Source: a bacterium
GTDB lineage: Bacteria > JAHJDO01
NCBI GenBank assembly: GCA_030652805.1
Contig: JAUSPT010000074.1
Span: 1 to 23,586 of the forward strand
Reading direction: 5' to 3'
DNA length: 23,586 bases
This document shows, piece by piece, positions 4,089-17,106 of this stretch. The notes under the pieces were generated by a model. That model did no database searches. It was not told the origin of the DNA and was given only the letters and a program-made list of their open reading frames with translations. The position numbers were made by a program, and so were the translations under genes. Each line of letters opens with the position of its first letter. Position 1 is the stretch's first letter.

Positions 4089-4886
4089 CTATCCCAACTT
4101 CCCTGCTCTATCTGCTGTTATATACTCCATACAAAAATTATCTTTGCCGATTAACGCCTGAGTTGCATAAATTGTTGAGACCATGTTTGGTTCTGTAGGA
4201 TCAATAATTGCAGTATCAAGCCCAGCATTGATCATCAAGCTTAAAAAAGTCCTGTTAATATGGTTCCTTTTAGGCAGGCCAAAGGATACATTGCTAAGAC
4301 CGCATATAGTATGCGCTCCTTTTAATTCCTTCATTATAATGCTCACTGCCTGAAGCACATAACTTACCTGCTCAGGATTTGTGCTTATTGGCCTTATTAA
4401 TGTATCAAAATAAACTCTGTCCAGAGATATGCCTTCAGACATTAATTTATCTCGCAACTTCCTTGCTACGTCAACCCTTTTTTCAAGATTATCAGGCATT
4501 CCTGAATCATCCATAGTAAGAGCCACTACCTTGGTATTATATTCCTTAACCAATGGCAAAATACTATCAATTCTATTCTTTTCTCCTGTTATAGAATTAA
4601 CAATAGGAACTTCGTTCTTATTCCTTTTAAGCGCAGCTTCAATAGCCTTAGGATTGGCACTATCAATGCACAATGGTTTATCTGTAACTTCCTGCACAAT
4701 GTCCACAAGCCATTCAATGTCCCCTACTTCTCCTGATACACTGGTTCCCGCATTAACATCTATATAATCAGCACCTGCCTTATCCTGCATTCTGGCCTGC
4801 TCCTGAATATACTCCTTATCCCTTTCGCTGACAGCCTTGTTAATATGCTTTCTGCTTGTATTAATTCTTTCACCAATAATTTCCAT
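4089..4886 (-). CDS. Methyltetrahydrofolate:corrinoid methyltransferase module
   Basis: A stand-alone pterin-binding TIM barrel of 265 residues, the size of AcsE/MeTr. It moves the methyl group of methyltetrahydrofolate to cob(I)alamin on a corrinoid protein. It begins MEIIGERIN and has the family's key residues: D43 in YIDVNAG, D75 in CIDSANP, N97 in IVNSITG, D161 and N199 in GLSNVSFGLP. Two roles are possible. It may be the pterin module of a split MetH, supported by the homocysteine module 1.8 kb upstream in the same run, or an AcsE-type Wood-Ljungdahl enzyme, as no other acetyl-CoA pathway gene is visible here. The start is placed at ATG 4886 because GGGAGG (4893-4898) lies 6 bases before it; a TTG at 4892 overlaps that site less plausibly. 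No corrinoid-binding domain is encoded in the window. Confidence 0.87.
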   Translation of the reverse strand: MEIIGERINTSRKHINKAVSERDKEYIQEQARMQDKAGADYIDVNAGTSVSGEVGDIEWLVDIVQEVTDKPLCIDSANPKAIEAALKRNKNEVPIVNSITGEKNRIDSILPLVKEYNTKVVALTMDDSGMPDNLEKRVDVARKLRDKLMSEGISLDRVYFDTLIRPISTNPEQVSYVLQAVSIIMKELKGAHTICGLSNVSFGLPKRNHINRTFLSLMINAGLDTAIIDPTEPNMVSTIYATQALIGKDNFCMEYITADRAGKLG

Positions 4887-4889
4887 AAT

Positions 4890-4900
4890 CAACCTCCCTT
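4890..4900 (-). promoter_or_regulatory. Strong ribosome-binding site of the methyltransferase
   Basis: The minus strand reads AAGGGAGGTTG just before ATG 4886, one of the best Shine-Dalgarno matches in the window. Its spacing of about 6 bases selects ATG 4886 over the in-frame TTG at 4892. Confidence 0.7.
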
Positions 4901-6653: not shown

Positions 6654-7544
6654 CTAGAAAAGGCGGCTGTCCACTGCGTTTCTTATGGCTCTTATATGTT
6701 CAGGTGTTGTACCGCAACATCCTCCTATGATATTTGCTCCGGCATTTATGAGTTCAGAAACCTTTTTTGCCATATCCAAAGGAGTCTCTTTAAAACAAGT
6801 TTTCCCATGTATTAGTTCAGGAACCCCGGCATTAGCGTGAACAAGAATTGGTTTAGAAGAATATCTCCTCATTTCCAGGACTATATCTATCATAGGACCA
6901 ATTCCATTACCACAATTCGTTCCTATAATATCCGCACCTGCTTTTTCTAATCCAAGAGCAGCCTCTTTTATACTCACGCCCATCATTGTTTTATACCCCT
7001 GCATTCCCTTATCAAATGTCATTGTAGCAATAGCAGGAACAGCTGTGTTTTCCTTTACAACCTTTATAGCAATAGAAACTTCTTCAAGAGAAGTCATGGT
7101 TTCTATGCATATTGCGTCTGCTCCACCTTGTATTTGAGCAAGAATCTGTTCCCTAAACACATCATACATCTCACCTTCTGTCACAGTCCCCAGCGGTCGC
7201 ATAAATTCTCCTGTTGGGCCAAGGGAGGCTGCAACAATTCCTCCGTATTGCAGAGCAGCTTTCTTAGCCAACGCAACACCTGCTTTATTAAATTCGGCAA
7301 CATTTGCTTCTAAACCAAATTTTGCAAGCTTAAATCTAGATCCACCGAATGTGTTCGTTAATATCATATCACTTCCGGCTTTTAAGTAAGCTTCTGCAAT
7401 TGCCTTGACTTCTCCTGGATGAGTTATATTCCACTCTTCGGGGCACTCTCCAAGTCCCAAACCTTTGTGGTGAAGCATGGTGCCCATAGCACCATCAGAT
7501 ACCAAAACTTCTCCTTTTTTAACACGGTCAAGTAGCAAACTCAT
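6654..7544 (-). CDS. Homocysteine S-methyltransferase module (MetH N-terminal domain)
   Basis: A 296-residue zinc-dependent homocysteine-binding TIM barrel corresponding to the first module of cobalamin-dependent methionine synthase. It begins with the typical SDGAMGTML segment and contains the three zinc-binding cysteines: C211 in GTNCGNG, and C276 and C277 in GGCCGTTPEH. The module would move a methyl group from a methylcorrinoid protein to homocysteine, giving methionine. It is encoded alone, without the pterin, corrinoid-binding or reactivation domains. The pterin module is in the same run at 4089-4886, beyond rlmN and a HAD gene. The ATG overlaps the btuR stop codon (ATGA, 7541-7544), tying it tightly to the B12 genes. 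It could alternatively serve a different methyl donor, since related stand-alone enzymes use betaine or S-methylmethionine. The upstream B12 genes favour the MetH role. Confidence 0.88.
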   Translation of the reverse strand: MSLLLDRVKKGEVLVSDGAMGTMLHHKGLGLGECPEEWNITHPGEVKAIAEAYLKAGSDMILTNTFGGSRFKLAKFGLEANVAEFNKAGVALAKKAALQYGGIVAASLGPTGEFMRPLGTVTEGEMYDVFREQILAQIQGGADAICIETMTSLEEVSIAIKVVKENTAVPAIATMTFDKGMQGYKTMMGVSIKEAALGLEKAGADIIGTNCGNGIGPMIDIVLEMRRYSSKPILVHANAGVPELIHGKTCFKETPLDMAKKVSELINAGANIIGGCCGTTPEHIRAIRNAVDSRLF

Positions 7545-8071
7545 AACTCAATTCCAAGCCTCGCTTTTATTTTCTTATCATACGGATGTTTAATCTTTAC
7601 ATACCGTGTTACTAAATCAGAAAGCTCAATAATTTCCTTATCTTCTCCTCTGCCTGTCAAAATAAGCTCTGTATTTTGAGGCTTATTTTTAAGAAATTCT
7701 ACAAGCCTCTCTTTATCAAGTAAATTTCCTCTTATCAAAAGATTTACTTCATCAAGTATCACTAGATCATAATGTTTCTGTTCTATCTCGTTAGCAATCT
7801 TATCTATAATTTTCTTAAAAAAATCTTTCGCCTTTTTCTTTCTCTCTTGTCCTAACTTTTCACAAAATGCATAATCATGGCCAAAACACTTAATATCAAC
7901 TCCCAGCTCCCTCAGGACAACTTGTTCTCCTGAACTATCATCCTTTTTCAGGAATTGGATCATATAAACATTTAACCCGTTGCCCTTAGCACGAATTGCT
8001 TGTCCTATTGCTGCTGTTGTCTTGCCTTTACCATTTCCGGTATATACCTGAACAAGTCCTGTTTTTAACAT
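7541..8071 (-). CDS. btuR: Cob(I)yrinic acid a,c-diamide adenosyltransferase
   Basis: CobA/CobO/BtuR-family adenosyltransferase, which transfers the adenosyl group of ATP to the cobalt of reduced corrinoids to make the coenzyme form. The 176-residue protein opens with VQVYTGNGKGKTTAA, whose P-loop (GNGKGKTT, 12-19) is the hallmark of this family and binds ATP in an unusual orientation. A DLVILDEVN strand lies further in. Length and motifs fit full-length CobA. The ATG overlaps the last 7 bases of cobQ (ATGTTAA), and its own stop overlaps the homocysteine methyltransferase start, so all three are probably translated together. Adenosylation is required both in new corrinoid assembly and in salvage of imported corrinoids, matching the upstream btuFCD and cobQ. 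Confidence 0.95.
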   Translation of the reverse strand: MLKTGLVQVYTGNGKGKTTAAIGQAIRAKGNGLNVYMIQFLKKDDSSGEQVVLRELGVDIKCFGHDYAFCEKLGQERKKKAKDFFKKIIDKIANEIEQKHYDLVILDEVNLLIRGNLLDKERLVEFLKNKPQNTELILTGRGEDKEIIELSDLVTRYVKIKHPYDKKIKARLGIEL

Positions 8072-9573
8072 CTTAACCCCATTATAGAATATATCTTCTT
8101 CATATCCACACTCTTTCTTACTAATAAAGCTAATTTATCATACTCCTGTTCCTTATCAAACAGATTGTTTAATCCTCCTTCTGGTAATCGTTTGGATTTC
8201 CTTATATTATTTAAAAATGCAGCCCTAAAATTATCATTATCAAAAATGCCGTGAATATATGTCCCCCATACTCTTCCATCACAACTTTTTGTCCCGTCTT
8301 TTATGTTAACCCCTTTGCCAGACCTCTCGAATATCTCAAAAATTGGTTTTGTTGTATTGTCTAACCGTGTCTGACCCATATGTATCTCATAACCATGTAT
8401 TTCTCCTGAGGAGAAAAGGTTATCATATGCTTTTATCTGATGAGTTTGTTTTTCTTTTTTTATTGTTGTAGTTATATCTAACAAACCCATTCCTTTTATG
8501 TTTGTTTTTTTAGTTTCAATATGATCTGGGTCAATAATTTCTCTACCAAGCATTTGATAGCCGCCACATATACCAATTATAGAAACTCCCTTTCTGCTGT
8601 ATTCTTTTATTTTTGATGTAAAACCACTCTTTCTCAGAACTGCTAAATCATCTATTGTGTTTTTACTGCCTGGAATTATGATAACGTCTGCATGTTTAAG
8701 CCCATCAGACTGCTTAATATACTCAAGCTCCACACCGTGTTCCTTCTCCAGCATATCAAAATCTGTAAAATTGGAAATATGAGGTAAATAAATAACCTTT
8801 ATTCTTATATTATCCCTATCTCTCGCAGAAGAACTACTTTTGTAAGGATCAATACATACAGAATCTTCTTCCTGAATCTTTATATCGGTAAAATACGGGA
8901 TCACGCCAAGAACAGGTTTCTGCGTTTTTTTCTCCAAAAATGTTATTGCAGGTTCCAAAAGACTTCTGTCTCCCCGAAACTTGTTTATTAAAAATCCCTT
9001 AACACGTTTTTTCTCACTATCTGATATAAGCTCCATAGTGCCGACAAGCCACGCAAAAACTCCGCCCAGATTTATATCGCCGACAAGGATTACAGGCGCA
9101 TCTATTTTTTCGGCAATACTCATATTCACAATATCGTTTTTTCGTAAATTGATCTCTGCAGGAGAACCGGCTCCTTCTATTACAACTATGTCATTTTCCT
9201 CTGCAAGTCTGTTAAATGATGCTATTACTACATTCATTAATTTTGGTTTATGCTTATGGTATGTAACGCTGTCCATATTTCCGACAGGTTTTCCCATGAC
9301 AATAACCTGACATCCCACATCCGATGATGGTTTGAGTAAAACAGGATTCATATCGACTGAGGGCTCTATTCCACAAGCTTCTGCCTGAACAACCTGGGCT
9401 CTTCCCATCTCTTCACCATTTTTGGTTACAAAGGAATTTAAAGCCATATTCTGCGCCTTAAATGGCGCTACTTTATAACCATCAGCCATAAATATTCTGC
9501 ACAGCGCAGCAGTAACTACACTTTTGCCCACATAAGAACCAGTTCCCTGAATCATTATTGTCTTTGCTTGCAT
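8065..9573 (-). CDS. cobQ: Cobyric acid synthase
   Basis: CobQ/CbiP amidates side chains b, d, e and g of adenosylcobyrinic acid a,c-diamide using glutamine and ATP, giving adenosylcobyric acid. The 502-residue product has an N-terminal dethiobiotin-synthetase-like ATPase domain beginning IQGTGSYVGKS (residues 8-18), with KAQNMALNSF following at 39-48. Its C-terminal class I glutamine amidotransferase domain carries the nucleophile C336 in GICGGYQMLG and the histidine H441 in YIHGIFDN. Both halves are complete and the length is normal. The ATG start has AGGAG 4 bases upstream. It follows btuD by 15 bases and overlaps btuR. Because the earlier ring-building genes are missing from the window, it may work on a salvaged or imported precursor. 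Confidence 0.96.
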   Translation of the reverse strand: MQAKTIMIQGTGSYVGKSVVTAALCRIFMADGYKVAPFKAQNMALNSFVTKNGEEMGRAQVVQAEACGIEPSVDMNPVLLKPSSDVGCQVIVMGKPVGNMDSVTYHKHKPKLMNVVIASFNRLAEENDIVVIEGAGSPAEINLRKNDIVNMSIAEKIDAPVILVGDINLGGVFAWLVGTMELISDSEKKRVKGFLINKFRGDRSLLEPAITFLEKKTQKPVLGVIPYFTDIKIQEEDSVCIDPYKSSSSARDRDNIRIKVIYLPHISNFTDFDMLEKEHGVELEYIKQSDGLKHADVIIIPGSKNTIDDLAVLRKSGFTSKIKEYSRKGVSIIGICGGYQMLGREIIDPDHIETKKTNIKGMGLLDITTTIKKEKQTHQIKAYDNLFSSGEIHGYEIHMGQTRLDNTTKPIFEIFERSGKGVNIKDGTKSCDGRVWGTYIHGIFDNDNFRAAFLNNIRKSKRLPEGGLNNLFDKEQEYDKLALLVRKSVDMKKIYSIMGLRC

Positions 9574-9588
9574 AAGACTCCTAATATT

Positions 9589-10389
9589 CTACTGCAGGAC
9601 TTTAGCCTTTTCTTCTTCTGAAACTACCAGTATGTATGGCTTAGAAGAAATAGGATTTTTTTTAACTACTACTGTTGTGTTGTAAACATCCTCAATAATC
9701 TGATATGTTAATACTTCATGTGGTGCGCCAACTTTGTGAATAAGTCCATTGTTAAGAAGAATTAATCTATCGCAATATTCGCTTGCCAGATTAAGATCAT
9801 GCAAAACCACAATCACGGTAAGTCCATTTTGCCTATTTAACCTTCTTATAAGATCTAACACTCTAATTTGATGTGTTATATCCAAATGAGCGGTGGGTTC
9901 ATCTAAAAGAAGCAATCTCGGCTCTTGAGCAAGCGCACGGGCAATAACTGCAAGCTGTCTTTCTCCACCGCTTAGCTCTCCTATAAGCCTGTTCTTAAAC
10001 CTGATAGTATCCGTTAAAATCATTGCTTCTTCAGCAATCTCCTCATCGCGTTTGCTTTCCAAAAATTGAAACTGCCTGCGATAAGGTATCCTTCCCAAAA
10101 GAACAAATTCTTCTATGGTCATATTATATCCTATTTCCGAGCTCTGAGATACAAAAGCTACTTTTTTAGCAAATTCTCTAAATCCAAATTTCAATATATC
10201 TTTTCCTTCAAAAAGAACCTCTCCACTCCGGAGCTTAAGTATTTTGGTCATTGCCCTAAGCAAAGTTGTTTTTCCTGAGCCGTTAGGGCCAATTATACCC
10301 CAGAGACCTCTCTTTTGTATTCTGAAATTAATTCGGCTAAGTATAAATTTTGAGTCATATCCACAGGTCAGATCTTTTACCTCAAGCAT
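9589..10389 (-). CDS. btuD: ABC transporter ATPase, cobalamin/Fe-siderophore type
   Basis: The cytoplasmic ATPase of an importer, 266 residues, with Walker A GPNGSGKTT (34-42), the Q-loop at VSQSSE (80-85), the signature LSGGERQ (139-145), Walker B LLLLDEP (159-165) and the H-loop histidine H197 in VVLHDLN. The sequence type belongs to the FecE/BtuD group that serves cobalamin, iron-siderophores and haem, which cannot be told apart by motif alone. Cobalamin is inferred from the neighbours: it directly precedes cobQ and btuR, and the run lies downstream of a B12 riboswitch. The ATG shares a base with the btuC stop codon (TAATG at 10387-10391), so the two are coupled. Confidence 0.9.
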   Translation of the reverse strand: MLEVKDLTCGYDSKFILSRINFRIQKRGLWGIIGPNGSGKTTLLRAMTKILKLRSGEVLFEGKDILKFGFREFAKKVAFVSQSSEIGYNMTIEEFVLLGRIPYRRQFQFLESKRDEEIAEEAMILTDTIRFKNRLIGELSGGERQLAVIARALAQEPRLLLLDEPTAHLDITHQIRVLDLIRRLNRQNGLTVIVVLHDLNLASEYCDRLILLNNGLIHKVGAPHEVLTYQIIEDVYNTTVVVKKNPISSKPYILVVSEEEKAKVLQ

Positions 10390-11408
10390 TACCGCTTTCC
10401 TCCTAGCGTAACTTGTTTTTTGCTAAGAAAATAGACAAAAATCGCTCCGCCGATAATTCCTGTAATCACTCCAACAGGAAGTTCCAAAGGAGCAATAATT
10501 GTTCTGGCAAGGGTGTCGCAAAGTATAAGAAATGCCCCGCCTGCGAGAGCAGACGTAATAAGAAGTATACGATGATCTCCTCCAACAAACATACGGATAA
10601 AATGAGGGACGACCAATCCAACAAAGCCAATAACGCCTGCAACTGAAACAGCGCAGCCTGTGAGTAAGGAGGCTAGTATAAACAGCAATCTCTTTGTCTT
10701 TTCTGTATTTATGCCTAAATGCAGAGCCTCTTCTTCTCCTAAAGCAAGCGCATTAAGCTCTGCACAAAATAAGTAAGATATGAACAAACCCAAAACAGAT
10801 ATTAAAACCACTACCTTTATAAGAGCCAGATTCGGTTCTTCTAAAGAGCCCATTATCCAGAAAACAATTCCATGAAGATCTTCTGTGCGGGAAACAGCCA
10901 TAATGAGCATAATTAGGGATGAGGAGATAAAACTTATCATTACTCCTGTAAGAAGAAGTCCTTGAATTTTTAATATGCCCTTTCTTGCGCTTAATGAGTA
11001 AACAGCAAGAATTACAACGACCGCTCCCAGAAATCCGCTTGCTGGGATGGATAAGATTCCTCCTATTCTATTCAGTCTTAGAACGATATTTAAACACACA
11101 CCCAAAGCTGCTCCGCCAGAAATACCAAGAGTATACGGCTCAACCAGAGGATTGCGAAACATACCCTGAAGAAGTACCCCTGCAATGCTCAGAGCGCTCC
11201 CTACCGCAAGACCCAGAATAATGCGAGGCAGGCGAATGTCAAAAAGGATGCTGTATTCAGTAGTGCCTCTACCTCCAAGAATTAAAGGTATGATTTTCTT
11301 AAAAGGTATACCAGCTGAGCCAACGCTCAACGAAAAAGCGCCTACTCCAAGAAGAATCCCGCATAAAATTAATATACAGATAAGCCAGTTAATTAGTTTT
11401 TTATTCAT
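10389..11408 (-). CDS. btuC: ABC transporter permease, BtuC/FecCD family
   Basis: The 339-residue membrane subunit of a type II ABC importer. The sequence has about ten hydrophobic segments and family motifs such as FDIRLPRIILGLAVGSAL near residue 60, GVLLQGMFRNPLVEPYTLGI, and GFVGLVVPHFIRM, the coupling region with the ATPase. The length matches BtuC and FecCD proteins. Paired with the upstream binding protein and the coupled ATPase, it forms a complete inner-membrane transporter; the riboswitch and cobQ/btuR context favours corrinoids as cargo. The ATG has no good Shine-Dalgarno sequence and lies 7 bases beyond a strong palindrome in the btuF-btuC gap. Its translation or transcript level may therefore be set apart from btuF. 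No outer-membrane receptor (BtuB) is present in the window. Confidence 0.93.
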   Translation of the reverse strand: MNKKLINWLICILILCGILLGVGAFSLSVGSAGIPFKKIIPLILGGRGTTEYSILFDIRLPRIILGLAVGSALSIAGVLLQGMFRNPLVEPYTLGISGGAALGVCLNIVLRLNRIGGILSIPASGFLGAVVVILAVYSLSARKGILKIQGLLLTGVMISFISSSLIMLIMAVSRTEDLHGIVFWIMGSLEEPNLALIKVVVLISVLGLFISYLFCAELNALALGEEEALHLGINTEKTKRLLFILASLLTGCAVSVAGVIGFVGLVVPHFIRMFVGGDHRILLITSALAGGAFLILCDTLARTIIAPLELPVGVITGIIGGAIFVYFLSKKQVTLGGKR

Positions 11409-11453: not shown

Positions 11454-12335
11454 TTAATGCAATATCTCAACTATCTCCTCTAATACTTCAACGAAACTTA
11501 CTGGCGTAGGGCTGCAAACTTTATAGGAATCAACAATATGAATTCTGTTGTTTTTTGCTGCGTTTAGGGTTTTGTACTTTTGCCACGTTTCCTTTTCTTG
11601 TTCTCCCACAATGCCCATAGTCACAATAATGATTACATCAGGATTTTGTTCAAGCACTTTTTCGCGGCTGTAAAGACCGCTTTTCCCGGATGGTCCAATA
11701 TTTATTCCTCCGGCAAGTTTGATAAAGTCATTGATAAAAGAATCTTTTGTTGCTACCCATAAAGGCTTTGCTCCTATCTGAACAAGCACTTTTGGCTTTG
11801 ATAAATCTTTGATCTTTCGCTGAATAGAAGACACCTTATTCTTTGCTCTGCGAACAATTTGTTTTGACTTATCCTCGCTGCCGATAGTTTTGCTAAGTTC
11901 TATTAATTCTTCGCAAATTCCAGAGAAATTTTTGACATCGGGAAAAATCTTTACTTCCATTCCCAAGTTTCTTAACTTTTCAATCTGTTTCTGATTACTG
12001 TACCATTTAGCTAGAATTAAATCAGGCTCAAGATATAGGATTTTCTCTACGCTTATTTTCATTCCTGAGCCTATCTTTTCTTTTTTCTCTGCGGCAGGAG
12101 GTCTCTTACAGTATGAAGTATTCGCTATAAGCCTGTTTTCTACTCCTAAAAGATAAAGCTCTTCAGTTAGAACGGGAACTAATGAAATTATTCGTTGAGG
12201 GGAATTGTTCTCCGCATGAATTGCAGAGTTGACATATAGGGGTTCTAGACATAGAACCCCATATAGTAGAGCAAGAACTGCGAAAAAACAGATTTTTAAT
12301 GTTAAAATGCCCTTTATGCTGTCAAAGTTTTTCAT
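11454..12335 (-). CDS. btuF: Periplasmic cobalamin-binding protein, BtuF-like
   Basis: A class III substrate-binding protein of about 293 residues that would capture corrinoid outside the inner membrane and deliver it to BtuCD. The N-terminus has charged residues followed by a long hydrophobic stretch (ILTLKICFFAVLALLYGVL) and a likely cleavage site near AIHA, giving a secreted protein; no clear lipobox is seen. The mature part has the family features: RIISLVPVLTEELYLLG at the start, LEPDLILAKW in the first lobe, a long backbone helix, and NPDVIIIVTM in the second lobe. I start it at ATG 12335, whose bases overlap the thyX stop codon (ATGA, 12332-12335). An in-frame ATG at 12374 would add 13 residues ahead of the signal peptide and overlap thyX by 43 bases. 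Cargo specificity is inferred from the B12 neighbours. Confidence 0.88.
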   Translation of the reverse strand: MKNFDSIKGILTLKICFFAVLALLYGVLCLEPLYVNSAIHAENNSPQRIISLVPVLTEELYLLGVENRLIANTSYCKRPPAAEKKEKIGSGMKISVEKILYLEPDLILAKWYSNQKQIEKLRNLGMEVKIFPDVKNFSGICEELIELSKTIGSEDKSKQIVRRAKNKVSSIQRKIKDLSKPKVLVQIGAKPLWVATKDSFINDFIKLAGGINIGPSGKSGLYSREKVLEQNPDVIIIVTMGIVGEQEKETWQKYKTLNAAKNNRIHIVDSYKVCSPTPVSFVEVLEEIVEILH

Positions 12336-13033
12336 CTTTTCAATGCCTTTTCTTTTAGGGGAGCAAGTCCGCAAGAGAATTTACCTTCAGGACAATATCC
12401 GAGTTTTAGGCATTTTTGTCCTGCCGTTGAAAAAACTGCTGACAATTCCCTTTTGCAAATCAATAACATTTCATACGCCAACTTTCTTATTTCCCATTGC
12501 GCCCTTGCGCAGCATCTTTCTTCAAAAAAATGCAAAAGTTCCCTTGCGTTCATTGTAATTACTATCTTTGTCTCCGCCGCCTGAGGCAGAACAAATCTCG
12601 CATCCTGAGATGACGTTGCCTTTAATATTTTATTATAAGTCTTCTGAATTTCGCCCATGATATTTTTAAATTCTTTTTTTAAATTTTCGTCTTTTTCAAT
12701 AGAAGGCGGAACTATATATTTGAAATTGTTTTCTTTCACATAACGTTGGCTTTGCTGGGAATATGAAGCGATCCTGTGTCGGACAAGCTGATGCGTTAAT
12801 GCGCGCGATACGCCTTCAATCGCAAAAGTAAATTTCACATGTTCAAGAGGACTTAAATGGCCTGAACTTATTATCTTCTCTATAAATTTCTCCTGCTTGT
12901 CAGGAGCGATTTTATTCTTAAAAATCTCTCCCGCAAATTCAGGCGAGTAACACTGGCGCGCCGAGAAATAAATCACAGAAAGAGCGTTTTGAGTAACTTC
13001 AAGAAGCTGCACATTTAATTTAGATTGTTCCAT
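12332..13033 (-). CDS. thyX: Flavin-dependent thymidylate synthase ThyX
   Basis: ThyX makes dTMP from dUMP with methylenetetrahydrofolate as carbon donor and FAD/NADPH as reductant; unlike ThyA it releases tetrahydrofolate directly. The 233-residue product holds the exact ThyX signature RHRIASYSQQSQR (residues 85-97), which matches RHRxxSxxxxSxR, plus an upstream SPLEHVKFTF and a downstream NARELLHFFEERC segment. Length and motif leave little doubt. It sits between the PilZ gene and btuF, to which it is coupled by ATGA. Its link to the B12 genes is probably folate one-carbon balance with the methionine synthase modules. A TATAAT box 7 bases before the ATG suggests it may also have its own promoter. 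Confidence 0.96.
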   Translation of the reverse strand: MEQSKLNVQLLEVTQNALSVIYFSARQCYSPEFAGEIFKNKIAPDKQEKFIEKIISSGHLSPLEHVKFTFAIEGVSRALTHQLVRHRIASYSQQSQRYVKENNFKYIVPPSIEKDENLKKEFKNIMGEIQKTYNKILKATSSQDARFVLPQAAETKIVITMNARELLHFFEERCCARAQWEIRKLAYEMLLICKRELSAVFSTAGQKCLKLGYCPEGKFSCGLAPLKEKALKR

Positions 13034-13036
13034 ACC

Positions 13037-13057
13037 CTGAATTATATCACAATTCAG
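13037..13057 (-). promoter_or_regulatory. Possible thyX promoter overlapped by an inverted repeat
   Basis: A perfect -10 hexamer TATAAT (minus strand, 13041-13046) ends 7 bases before the thyX ATG, the same distance as at queH and nadB. No good -35 box is present at 16-18 bases; the best match has about three of six bases. Perfect 7-base arms CTGAATT and AATTCAG (13051-13057 and 13037-13043) enclose and overlap the -10 box, so a repressor site or a hairpin around the ATG is possible. Confidence 0.4.
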
Positions 13058-14055
13058 CCCGTGATTAATAATTTTCCCAATGCCTTATTTGAAAAAGTCT
13101 TACCTCTGAATTTTACTCCAACCCTGAAATAATTCTTTTTAGGCAGCTTTCTTGAATACACAATGCCGGCTTTTGTGATAAATTCATTCCTTGTTCCTGG
13201 GATTCTTATCTTTACAGTGACGGCTTTCCCTTTTTTTAACTCTGTCTTACTAAAAATTCCTACTCCTGTATTGGATATATCATCTATTGGCTTTCTTCGC
13301 CATGTTCTGAAAAAACCAAAGACTCCGCCCTGTTTATACTCTAGCAAAAGAATATCCGCCTTCAACCTTTTAGCTCTTCGTCGTTTGAACATCTCTTTGT
13401 CATTGTAAGATTCCAGTATGTTCTCTTTGGCAGCATCTTCAACTATGTTAACAGACTGCTTCCTTTGAAGCATCAGGATAATAGATATAGTGAGTAAGTA
13501 CATAGCCAGTATTGATGTGCTTCCCCAGATGCCAAACTTTTTTATCTGCAATATTTTTTTATAAGTGTCATTAACGTTACATGTTAAATTAATAATCCAC
13601 TCTTTTCCTGATTGACTTATTGGAAAACTGGAAGACAACATATACCCTTTATTAGTCAGGAATATATCGCTTAAGAATACATTCCCTAATACGAATGCTT
13701 TGTGATTACAAACCGTCATCACATTTTTAACCCTGGTATTCAGATTATCTTCACTGCTCGGATTTACATTCTTGAAGAATGTTCTTTTACCGAATGCTGG
13801 ATGCATCATTGTCTGATGTCTAAAAATATTAATTGAAATATTCTTTTCGGAAATTTCCCTGCCATTTGTAACAATATTAATCTTCTTACAGTGTAACAAA
13901 TTATTCTGTGTTTTGATGTTATTGCATAAACCTACAACATCGTTCTTAAGTTCACTGCTTTTTCTAGCAAAATAAAAGCTGCATATTCCAAAAGTAATTA
14001 AACATAGAGACAATGCAAAACATAATGAAACAAGAATAATTCTTTTTCTATTCAT
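13054..14055 (-). CDS. Membrane-anchored PilZ-domain protein with extracytoplasmic sensor region
   Basis: A 333-residue protein with a membrane segment at about 6-30, an extracytoplasmic region of roughly 145 residues, a second membrane segment at about 175-196 and a cytoplasmic C-terminal PilZ domain (about 223-320). The PilZ domain has the cyclic-di-GMP-binding elements: an arginine cluster RRRAKR (225-230), and DISNTG (259-264), matching (D/N)xSxxG. It would bind c-di-GMP and change the behaviour of the membrane protein or a partner. The outer domain was not recognised; the two-helix layout is like that of ligand-sensing receptors. The gene lies 14 bases after the pseudopilin gene and 20 before thyX. 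It may link the pseudopilin to c-di-GMP signalling, though that is inference from position. The ATG lacks a strong ribosome-binding site. Confidence 0.8.
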   Translation of the reverse strand: MNRKRIILVSLCFALSLCLITFGICSFYFARKSSELKNDVVGLCNNIKTQNNLLHCKKINIVTNGREISEKNISINIFRHQTMMHPAFGKRTFFKNVNPSSEDNLNTRVKNVMTVCNHKAFVLGNVFLSDIFLTNKGYMLSSSFPISQSGKEWIINLTCNVNDTYKKILQIKKFGIWGSTSILAMYLLTISIILMLQRKQSVNIVEDAAKENILESYNDKEMFKRRRAKRLKADILLLEYKQGGVFGFFRTWRRKPIDDISNTGVGIFSKTELKKGKAVTVKIRIPGTRNEFITKAGIVYSRKLPKKNYFRVGVKFRGKTFSNKALGKLLITG

Positions 14056-14069
14056 CTTTTAAATACTGC

Positions 14070-14849
14070 TTATTCTCTGTCATACAGGGTATTATCCGTA
14101 CCTATAAAGCCAATATTAGCTGCTCTGAACTCATCGGCTGTGCTTCCCCCCCATCCTGACACAGTGACCGAACCCAAGCGTTCGCTTGTTACATGCCCAT
14201 CGCACCAAGCAACATTAGCCTTTCCATTATGCCTGAAATGTATGCTTGGATCATTATTTGATCCCCAATGTTCATTTGTTGGCGCCTCAACATAAGAGTA
14301 TTCTATAATTTGACCGCTGTTTAATATGGCTACATCTGTCAACATTATAGTTTCAGTAGAATTTTTTATTTCTTTATCCTTTGCAGGAGTCAAAAAAGGA
14401 AATGGCCAAGCATCAGGAGTGCCGCCTATATATTGACAATTATATCCATATCCCCCACATCCTTCTTCATAAGCAACAGCTCCAGTGGCTAAGTATTTTT
14501 TAAAGGATGGACATGCTCTAATCTCCTTATTTTTTAGATACGGGTAAATAGGAGTTTGTTCAGATATAACAAATGGACTGCTTGCATCGGGTCTTTCTCC
14601 ATGCCATCTCCTATTATTATCCTGACTTGATGCAGGGGGATACCATCCATCATTGTCATCTGCATACATTATGAAAGCAAGTGATATCTGTTTTAGGTTT
14701 GAAATACAAACCGCACCTCTGCCTTTTTCCCTCGCTTTTGAAAGCGCAGGAAGAAGGATTGATGAGAGCATGGCTATTATTGCTATCACAACCAAAAGCT
14801 CGATAAGCGTAAACCCACTGAATCCTTTTTTGTTCTTTCTTGTTACCAT
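14070..14849 (-). CDS. Type II secretion/pilin-like protein with H-X9-DG motif
   Basis: A 259-residue pseudopilin-like protein. After a basic leader there is a class III prepilin signal [18 protein letters not shown] with predicted cleavage after G12 and the conserved glutamate E17 as mature residue 5. The hydrophobic helix and [10 protein letters not shown] segment follow. The C-terminal part contains H207[10 protein letters not shown]217-G218-H, the H-X9-DG motif common in large prepilin families of planctomycete, verrucomicrobial and lentisphaeral genomes. The body is rich in Gly, Tyr, Trp and Cys, and its function is unknown. It is the first gene after the cobalamin riboswitch. The start at ATG 14849 has GGAG 9 bases upstream; another ATG nearer to that site is in a different frame. 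No prepilin peptidase or assembly ATPase is in the window. Confidence 0.88.
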
Positions 14850-14873
14850 CTTCCATTTCTCCTTTTTTTGTTA

Positions 14874-14907
14874 ATAAAAAAAGCCCAATCTTCGCAGATC
14901 GAGCTTT
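14874..14907 (-). terminator. Intrinsic terminator of the cobalamin riboswitch
   Basis: In leftward RNA an 11-pair stem (arms 14897-14907 and 14880-14890, two G-U pairs) closes a six-base loop UGCGAA and is followed directly by seven U residues. This is a textbook intrinsic terminator, lying about 50 bases after the B12 box and before the ribosome-binding site of the pseudopilin gene. It implies transcriptional control by the upstream aptamer, with ligand binding expected to favour termination. Confidence 0.85.
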
Positions 14908-14935
14908 CCATTATAAAAAACTTCCCCCTTTCCAC

Positions 14936-15076
14936 GAAGGTACTTACCTAAACAGGCAATGGTCCGGGCTTTCCCAAAATTTTGAGAATTACCGTTGCGG
15001 GACAGCGCCCAGAATCTCACTGGGACTTCCTTTGCCTCTCCGGCTAAAAACTAATTTTCAAAAGAACATTCTAAAC
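14936..15076 (-). ncRNA. Cobalamin (B12) riboswitch aptamer
   Basis: Read leftward, the RNA shows the core of the adenosylcobalamin-type riboswitch in order. GCCGGAGAGGC forms a short hairpin, then AAAGGAA, then CCCAG-UGAGAUU-CUGGG as a stem-loop. Next comes GCUGUCCCGCAACGGU (14991-15006 region), matching the conserved CxGxCCCGCxACxGU, and finally the B12 box AGCCCGGACCAUUGCC (14955-14970). The outer P1 pairing was not resolved, so the ends are approximate. A promoter is just upstream and an intrinsic terminator just downstream, so the element is a complete transcriptional switch. The first gene under it is the pseudopilin; btuFCD, cobQ and btuR lie further along the same strand. Confidence 0.9.
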
Positions 15077-15083
15077 TTGCTGA

Positions 15084-15111
15084 ATTATAACACTATTAAT
15101 TCGTACGTCTA
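15084..15111 (-). promoter_or_regulatory. Promoter of the riboswitch transcript
   Basis: A perfect -10 box TATAAT (minus strand, 15084-15089) is preceded at 16 bases by TAGACG (15106-15111), four of six bases of the -35 consensus. Transcription would begin near 15076-15077, just at the 5' edge of the recognisable B12 aptamer. Confidence 0.6.
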
Positions 15112-15160
15112 TAACAGATCTGCATATTTTTGGTAATATCTTGCTATTTTTACGCAAAGA

Positions 15161-16867
15161 TTAAAGAATAAGATTAAGCATTCCTCCTACTATTAATACA
15201 GCCACAATCATAATTGCTGATGCTTTGAGCATATCTACAAATCCCAACTCCTTTACCAATGTGCTGAAAGTAGCTATACATGGGAAATACATTGTCAAGA
15301 CTACACTGGCTATTATCAATTGCTTCAGGTTAAGGGCTAAAGGCGCTAACATTCCAACAGCCACATCTTTACGCAAGAAGCCGACTAATAGCGCTCCTAT
15401 TGCTTCTTTTGGCAGTCCAAAAATTCCAGAAATAACAGGAGCAGTATATTTCCCCACGAATTGGATTATGCCCAATGTATAAAGTATGTTTACTATAAAT
15501 ACTCCCAAAAGAACAAAAGGGATCGCTTCTTTAATAAACCACTTCGTGCGAATCCCCGTTTTTTTCAGCAGATGTGTTAGGTAAGGTCTTCGGTAAGGTG
15601 GTATTTCCATAAATATCTCCGGTGACGTTCCGCTTACCAGGTGAGCCATTAAGATTCCAAGTACCAGCCAGACCACAAAGAGTGTTCCGTAAACAACGCC
15701 TAGTCCATATACCATGTGCTCGCCCATCAATCCCACTACCATGGCTTGCAAAGCCGCACATGGTACTGCAATAGATAACAGAGTCACCGCGATAAATCGC
15801 TCTCTTCTGGTAGCTAATATCCTGGTGGAGAGAATGCCGGGAACATTGCAGCCCAATCCCAGCATCATAGGTATTATTGCCAGACCATGTATACCTAAAC
15901 GATGCATCAGTCCGTCCACCAGAACAGCTAATCTGGGCAGATAGCCACAATCTTCTAAAACTGACAACATTATGTAAAAAGCAAAAACATAAGGCAATAC
16001 TGCCCCTATCGGAACAAATAGACCGGTAGTCAATAGTCCAAAGGACTGACCATAATCTATTTTGCCCTCTATCAGCTTACCAATTAAGATATCGTGGATA
16101 AGTCCATTAGATCCCAATATTGCAGACAGTTTCAGCAATATTGGTGTCCACAATTTTTCAAAAACAGGTTCAAATACATAACCAATAAGTCCTTCCCCAA
16201 TAAATCTGATAATTTTGAAAGTGAAGAATAATATCACTAGAGCTAATGGAATTGAGAAGACAGGAGTCGTTGAAATATCTCCTAATCTTTCCATTAAGGT
16301 ATGGTGGTGATGACTCAATTTCTGAACCTGACCTATAATATCTCCTATAACATGCCATTTTCCCTTATCTTTGTAATCAAACTTAGAAAATTTTGCCTCT
16401 TTCAGTCTCTCAGTCAGTTTTTTTATTCCCTCGCCTGTAACTGCGCAGATAGGGATACAGGGAACACCTAATATCTCTTCCAACTTTTGAAAATCAATGG
16501 TAATCCCTTTATGCTTGGTTTCATCCCAGAAGTTAAGCGCGATTATCATAGGTTTTTTCTTTTTTATTAATTGCATTGTGAGGTTAAGACCTTTTTCCAA
16601 ATTGGTGGCATCAACAACATTAATAACTATATCTCCCCCCTCAAGCATTCTAACTGCAACTTCTTCTGCTTTATCACCAGCATCTAAGGAATAAGTTCCC
16701 GGCACATCTATTACCATCATATCTTCTTCATCTATCCGCATTTTACCCTGTGTAAAATCAACTGTTGTACCTGGATAGTTGGAGATAATAACATTTGCAC
16801 CCGTTAGTCTATTGAAAACTACACTCTTGCCATTGTTGGGATTTCCCATAAGCAATATTTTTTTCAT
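15161..16867 (-). CDS. feoB: Ferrous iron transport protein B
   Basis: FeoB is a membrane protein with a cytoplasmic GTPase domain that imports Fe(II). The product (568 residues from ATG 16867) has G1 GNPNNGKS (8-15), the G2 region NYPGTTVDF, G3 DVPGTYSL, G4 LNFWDE (NxxD type), and G5 CAVTGEG. Membrane segments follow, containing the family hallmarks LEDCGYLPR and GLGCNVPGI, which form the gate/nucleoside-recognition domains. It is somewhat shorter than E. coli FeoB, as in many compact homologues, but looks intact to the last hydrophobic helix. The start overlaps the feoA stop (ATGA, 16864-16867); an in-frame ATG at 16888 would lie inside feoA. It is the last gene of the nadB-cobT operon, so a role in supplying a metal to B12 metabolism is conceivable, but sequence alone indicates iron. 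Confidence 0.93.
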   Translation of the reverse strand: MKKILLMGNPNNGKSVVFNRLTGANVIISNYPGTTVDFTQGKMRIDEEDMMVIDVPGTYSLDAGDKAEEVAVRMLEGGDIVINVVDATNLEKGLNLTMQLIKKKKPMIIALNFWDETKHKGITIDFQKLEEILGVPCIPICAVTGEGIKKLTERLKEAKFSKFDYKDKGKWHVIGDIIGQVQKLSHHHHTLMERLGDISTTPVFSIPLALVILFFTFKIIRFIGEGLIGYVFEPVFEKLWTPILLKLSAILGSNGLIHDILIGKLIEGKIDYGQSFGLLTTGLFVPIGAVLPYVFAFYIMLSVLEDCGYLPRLAVLVDGLMHRLGIHGLAIIPMMLGLGCNVPGILSTRILATRRERFIAVTLLSIAVPCAALQAMVVGLMGEHMVYGLGVVYGTLFVVWLVLGILMAHLVSGTSPEIFMEIPPYRRPYLTHLLKKTGIRTKWFIKEAIPFVLLGVFIVNILYTLGIIQFVGKYTAPVISGIFGLPKEAIGALLVGFLRKDVAVGMLAPLALNLKQLIIASVVLTMYFPCIATFSTLVKELGFVDMLKASAIMIVAVLIVGGMLNLIL

Positions 16868-17106
16868 GGTTGCTCTATCTCCACCCATATTCTCTGAGCC
16901 ATACCAAAACCCACAGCAGCCCTAGTATTCCCATGACTGATAATAACAGGTCCTCTCATTAATTGCCTGCTCACTTTCTTAATTCTTTTGCCAACCCTTA
17001 AACCAAGCGTATCAAGCCTGCGATTTACCCCGAATCCGCCTTCTATTTGAACTATTCTTCCACTTTGACCAGACCGCATATTAGCTAAAGAGATCGCTCC
17101 ATTCAT
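16864..17106 (-). CDS. feoA: Ferrous iron transport protein A
   Basis: A small cytoplasmic SH3-like protein of 80 residues that partners FeoB. Features include an opening with [20 protein letters not shown], the [14 protein letters not shown] segment and a final [11 protein letters not shown], all typical of FeoA, where the TLGL/GxxxG stretch builds the beta-barrel. GAGG lies 6 bases before the ATG. Both ends overlap neighbours by ATGA: with cobT upstream (17103-17106) and feoB downstream. That makes it a firm member of the cobalamin operon and not just an adjacent gene. Its exact role in FeoB regulation is unsettled in the family. Confidence 0.93.

Follow-up and report, generated by a model that had tools for sequence, protein, structure and literature searches.

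A pseudopilin gene behind a cobalamin riboswitch suggests a pilin-like protein in bacterial vitamin B12 uptake

In the window, by which we mean the whole 23,586-nucleotide stretch of DNA that was analysed, a cobalamin riboswitch is followed first by the gene of an H-X9-DG pseudopilin and, further on, by genes for corrinoid import and synthesis. The linkage of riboswitch and pseudopilin to corrinoid genes is strongly supported. We think it probable that the pseudopilin belongs to a B12-limitation regulon and works in the uptake of corrinoids through the cell envelope; its molecular role, and the corrinoid binding proposed for it, we infer. The leader and the operon consist of the following features.

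15084..15111 (-): promoter-like site, TAGACG, 16 nt and an extended -10 element TG-n-TATAAT; kept in relatives
14915..15057 (-): AdoCbl (cobalamin) riboswitch aptamer RF01482, full length; 49.9 bits by cmscan, with covariation
14878..14909 (-): intrinsic terminator hairpin with T run (expression platform); z -5.0, pair-keeping changes in relatives
14859..14863 (-): ribosome-binding site AGGAG, read from the sequence
14070..14849 (-): H-X9-DG (DUF1559) pseudopilin, 259 aa, first gene under the riboswitch; H207-X9-D217-G218, Pfam and NCBIfam matches, orthologs behind the same switch
13054..14055 (-): membrane protein with a C-terminal PilZ domain (domain match), 14 bp downstream of the pseudopilin
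12332..13033 (-): ThyX flavin-dependent thymidylate synthase (domain match), after a gap of 20 from the PilZ gene
11454..12374 (-): BtuF-like corrinoid-binding protein; matches Peripla_BP_2, with BtuF chains among its top hits in the PDB
10389..11408 (-): BtuC-like permease; FecCD, with B12 models leading below their equivalog cut-offs
9589..10389 (-): BtuD-like ATPase; ABC_tran, with the corrinoid ATPase model leading below its equivalog cut-off
8065..9573 (-): cobyric acid synthase CobQ/CbiP; profile matches
7541..8071 (-): BtuR/CobO corrinoid adenosyltransferase; domain match

A cmscan of positions 14700-15300 matched RF01482 over its full length at 49.9 bits (E 3.4e-8) against a gathering score of 50, so that a default Rfam scan of the window returns no match at all. 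Because the score falls 0.1 bit under the cut-off, the aptamer was judged by E-values, relatives and covariation. The corresponding leaders of three relatives scored 50.5 bits (G001, above the cut-off), 46.6 bits (G002) and 46.2 bits (G004), and the leader is about 80% identical among these species and that of the window (G000). Six predicted pairs of the leader have changed on both sides with pairing kept in the four species; for example, CCCAG/CTGGG in three of them corresponds to CCTCG/CGAGG in G004. The scores of the relatives, the leader identity and the compensatory pairs together argue that the window's aptamer is real. The Infernal check that had been proposed in the preliminary description gave the 49.9-bit match reported above. 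The terminator hairpin (14878-14909) has 14 predicted pairs rather than the 11 first counted, with z = -5.0. The leader as a whole folds no more stably than its shuffles (z -0.4), so structural support comes from the terminator and the covariation only. The promoter-like TAGACG-16-TATAAT is kept in G001, and G002 and G004 have TTACAAT; promoter-like sites are not enriched across the region (4 found, 8.6 expected). The AGGAG motif is located about 9 bases 5' of the ATG at 14849. The coordinates of the preliminary description are correct, and apart from the pair count its leader elements were all recovered, the promoter as a promoter-like site. An aptamer followed by a terminator is the usual OFF design of this class, in which bound adenosylcobalamin stops transcription, and from this arrangement OFF-type control of the window operon by B12 is predicted.

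The protein matches N_methyl PF07963 at 25.0 bits (cut-off 21.2) and TIGR02532 at 28.2 (cut-off 16.3), both marking a prepilin-type N-terminal motif. DUF1559 PF07596 matches at 36.5 bits (cut-off 23.3) through the N-terminal part of the model only, and the NCBIfam H-X9-DG model TIGR04294 at 29 (cut-off 19). An AlphaFold2 model built from 13 sequences was poor (mean pLDDT 54, with the C-terminal half mostly below 50), and for that reason no fold search was made on it. The window's genome holds 22 matches to the pseudopilin, yet one riboswitch. It also encodes a pilus or secretion platform, with T2SSE, T2SSF and a T2SSG-type pseudopilin on one contig and a secretin and PilM on another.

As first described, the switch and the pseudopilin have no uptake or synthesis gene between them; btuF, btuC, btuD, cobQ and btuR come only after the PilZ gene and thyX. 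With homologs of BtuF, BtuC and BtuD together in one operon, a BtuFCD corrinoid ABC importer is recognised. On the upstream side, past a 311-base gap, are genes for FeoB, FeoA, CobT, CbiB, a CobD-like aminotransferase and a GHMP kinase. All this makes the entire stretch a region of corrinoid metabolism. Within it, feoB and feoA (15161-17106) are directly upstream of the riboswitch, and a homocysteine S-methyltransferase and a methyltetrahydrofolate-corrinoid methyltransferase (6654-7544 and 4089-4892) are encoded by separate genes, like split MetH modules. In the window (12332-13033) and in genome G260 (locus L102) the ThyX gene has btuF or a riboswitch-linked pseudopilin close by, and a ThyX-like protein is encoded near btuF in G002 (L008:423-1124), which raises the possibility of a connection between the supply of B12 and thymidylate synthesis of the flavin-dependent type.

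Five genomes of the window's phylum were compared, the same five being returned at the genus, family, order and phylum levels. Four have an AdoCbl riboswitch, with at most one per genome (E 0.001), and none was detected in the fifth, which is 62% complete. In three of the four switch-bearing genomes (G000, G001 and G004) an orthologous pseudopilin is the first gene behind the switch, the G001 and G004 proteins being 55% and 69% identical to that of the window. In G004 the pseudopilin stop overlaps the btuF start by 4 bases (ATGA). In G001 the order is pseudopilin, PilZ protein, several genes, DUF71-type protein, radical SAM protein and btuFCD, and the PilZ protein differs from that of the window. 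A profile built from the riboswitch-linked set gives the three orthologs 419-433 bits and the other pseudopilins examined in the phylum 135 bits at most. No riboswitch was found upstream of any of 24 pseudopilin paralogs in this phylum, nor in any of five PVC-type relatives scanned. A DUF71/Diphthami_syn_2 protein is encoded just before or near btuF in G001 (L006:8134-8832) and in G002 (L008:3509-4168).

The fourth switch-bearing genome, G002, has no pseudopilin ortholog. Its leader is the same, promoter and terminator included, and is followed by exbB, exbD, tonB, a TonB-dependent receptor gene, a gene for a DUF71-type protein and btuF. The best PDB match of the receptor is the colicin I receptor, with BtuB among the next. 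Behind one and the same switch there is therefore a pseudopilin in three genomes and the outer-membrane part of a classical importer in one, and this exchange suggests, from gene order, that the pseudopilin and TonB-receptor genes serve the same uptake step. The preliminary description had named as contrary evidence a relative in which the switch abuts btuF and the pseudopilin is missing. No such relative was found; in the one that lacks the pseudopilin, TonB-transport genes occupy the place. The plug domain PF07715 has no match in G000 (95.6% complete), so that no BtuB-type receptor is recognised there; the genome-wide plug-domain counts are 0 in G000, 0 in G004, 1 in G001 (on a stray contig) and 2 in G002. 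Most of the genomes compared are drafts.

Because only five genomes of the phylum were available, the comparison was carried to a second one by way of L048 (JACIXQ010000015), from an unclassified bacterium outside the five-genome set. Here an RF00174 match of 94 bits stands some 100 bases upstream of the gene for a pseudopilin 46% identical to the window's; the pseudopilin gene overlaps btuF by four bases, and btuD is next. The phylum of this genome (291 genomes) is the second phylum of what follows. Its pseudopilins were ranked by a profile of four sequences, and the upstream regions of 104 were examined, 101 of which had enough sequence. A cobalamin-class riboswitch (RF00174, RF01482 or RF01689) lies on the same strand upstream of 78 of these 101 close relatives, a figure that applies to loci picked by similarity to riboswitch-linked sequences and, as the sampling favours such relatives, is not a rate for pseudopilins at large. 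Some of these riboswitch calls were made with an nhmmer profile built from the positives, which gave 0 matches in 345 shuffled sequences. Together with the three genomes of the window's phylum, these loci answer the search for H-X9-DG prepilins behind cobalamin riboswitches that had been suggested at the outset. In a FastTree phylogeny of 137 sequences the window protein and its two orthologs cluster with riboswitch-linked members from the second phylum and apart from the other pseudopilins of the genomes that encode them; support is weak at the nearest node (0.23) and 0.90 at the enclosing one. RWHG- and FRHN-type motifs were considered as a mark of the riboswitch-linked pseudopilins and set aside, being enriched in some members and not defining. 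At L072:865-1339 and L132:804-1226 a tandem pair of cobalamin aptamers stands upstream of the pseudopilin.

Mutual exclusion of pseudopilin and TonB receptors was also considered. It is roughly true in the window's phylum and fails in the second, where plug domains were found in 34 of the 76 genomes with the riboswitch-pseudopilin pairing, none were detected in the other 42, and pairing and plug domains show no significant association (p = 0.44). Replacement of BtuB would thus be lineage-specific at most.

The genes behind the pseudopilin were surveyed within 4.2 kb at the 64 riboswitch-bearing loci of the second phylum that have downstream sequence. One or more of btuF, btuD, btuC, cobT, btuR and cobQ were found in 24 of the 64; the commonest recognised neighbour is btuF, mostly as the next gene and often close-spaced or overlapping. 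A BtuH-like gene follows the pseudopilin at eight loci, and at 32 neither a btu/cob gene nor a BtuH-like gene was found within that distance. The BtuH-like profile (A3) matches BtuG1 (8BLW, 5.8e-16) and BtuH2 (7BIZ, 5.5e-11) in the region of the C-terminal domain. BtuH binds B12 through its C-terminal domain (PMC8941943), and a BtuH domain is fused to BtuG1 (PMC10404256); by these profile matches the BtuH-like genes of the second phylum are classed as homologs of the B12-binding domain of BtuH2/BtuG1. Since the pseudopilin persists while its neighbours vary, it is the pseudopilin itself that forms the constant target of the switch. Other genes seen behind riboswitch-linked pseudopilins include a GDSL esterase in one second-phylum group (Pfam-confirmed at L211 and L221, with similar N-terminal sequence at L207 and L209), glycosidase-like or CoA-transferase genes at some loci and, directly behind the pseudopilin at L101, L102, L108 and L109, a gene whose product is a small membrane protein weakly matching a double zinc ribbon.

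The mechanism that we propose is as follows. With adenosylcobalamin plentiful, the aptamer would favour the terminator and the operon would be off; with adenosylcobalamin scarce, the pseudopilin, the PilZ protein, ThyX and BtuFCD-CobQ-BtuR would be made. The cell's type II secretion/type IV pilus platform would then process the pseudopilin and build it into a short pseudopilus or a membrane-anchored scaffold, and this structure would aid the passage of corrinoids across the outer envelope to BtuF, or would display a binder. In the sister genome G002 the same envelope task appears to be done by the TonB receptor with TonB-ExbBD. Assembly by this platform and a direct part in envelope passage are what we infer for the protein. 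A part in corrinoid acquisition, as first suggested, is supported by its linkage to btuF, btuC, btuD, cobT, btuR, cobQ and BtuH-like genes; that the pseudopilin would itself capture corrinoids at the cell surface is a proposal. A more specific version, in which pseudopilins bind B12 or guide it through the outer envelope to BtuF, taking the place of BtuB-TonB in certain lineages and helping surface B12 binders elsewhere, is put forward tentatively, as a possibility.

The linkage might be explained in other ways. The plainer alternative of the preliminary description was insertion of the pseudopilin between the switch and btuFCD; on this view a gene that is mobile or prone to duplication arrived there by chance and is regulated by accident. 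DUF1559 pseudopilins are certainly numerous, with the 22 matches in G000 and dozens of candidates per second-phylum genome. Such an origin would nevertheless require independent insertions of unrelated pseudopilins, of which the tree shows none: the riboswitch-linked sequences group together, apart from the paralogs of the window's phylum. Given that the pairing recurs across two phyla, in three species of the window's and at 78 of the 101 loci of the second, and that it includes loci with no btu gene after the pseudopilin, accidental insertion is not tenable, and we regard it as highly improbable. It is rather unlikely that the pseudopilin acts for a separate surface protein that binds B12 (BtuH-like or other), helping with its display or secretion and making no contact with corrinoid itself. 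Type II systems do export surface proteins, and BtuH-like genes are directly behind the pseudopilin at no fewer than eight second-phylum loci, but searches of the window, of the examined loci of its phylum and of the examined stretches of the btuF-type loci gave no BtuH-like protein.

A pseudopilin that is regulated by B12 and has no part in uptake is also conceivable; it would belong to a pilus or secretion apparatus with another use, such as attachment to B12 producers or particles, or enzyme secretion. Among the riboswitch-linked pseudopilins whose downstream sequence is available, half lack a nearby corrinoid gene, and some are followed by the GDSL esterase, glycosidase-like or CoA-transferase genes, and a PilZ protein follows the pseudopilin in the window and in G001. 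Against this stand the frequency and close spacing of btuF as neighbour, the genes with a BtuH-like B12-binding domain that follow in another group, and the replacement of the pseudopilin by TonB-receptor genes in G002, and we consider this explanation unlikely. A role in corrinoid uptake through the envelope is the reading that we prefer.

Comparison with known systems places the window operon beside the BtuB-TonB-ExbBD/BtuFCD system of E. coli and other riboswitch-regulated B12 loci: a cobalamin riboswitch stands in front, BtuF, BtuC and BtuD come behind, and the operon should be on under B12 scarcity. Unlike that system, the operon has no outer-membrane receptor or TonB genes and has a pseudopilin in first position. 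The competence pseudopilus (ComGC/ComEA) helps a large molecule through the outer layers towards an importer in the inner membrane; the idea is shared by analogy only, as substrate and importer differ. The lipoproteins BtuG, BtuH and BtuJ of Bacteroides (PMC8941943, PMC10404256, PMC13398666) are extra surface proteins in riboswitch-regulated B12 loci, and the second-phylum operons carry relatives of the BtuH domain beside the pseudopilin. The pseudopilin, however, is no lipoprotein and was unrelated to BtuG/BtuH by the searches made, and no BtuH-like gene was recognised in the window. With the DUF1559/H-X9-DG pseudopilins of Planctomycetes and their relatives it shares the N-terminal prepilin motif, the DUF1559 region and the C-terminal H-X9-DG; what sets the present subfamily apart is its linkage to cobalamin riboswitches and B12 genes. 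No function is known for the DUF1559/H-X9-DG family at large (PMC10632474). In the literature searched there was no description of DUF1559, pilin, prepilin or pseudopilin genes with cobalamin riboswitches, nor any experiment on the genes discussed here.

In several phyla the H-X9-DG pseudopilins rank with the largest paralog families, and for one of their subfamilies the riboswitch reveals the governing nutrient. The finding also directs attention to a step of B12 uptake at the outer envelope for which TonB may be dispensable. In sum, gene order and regulation suggest that some bacteria use a pilin-like protein for the uptake of vitamin B12, and if this is true, other pseudopilin paralogs may serve other nutrients.
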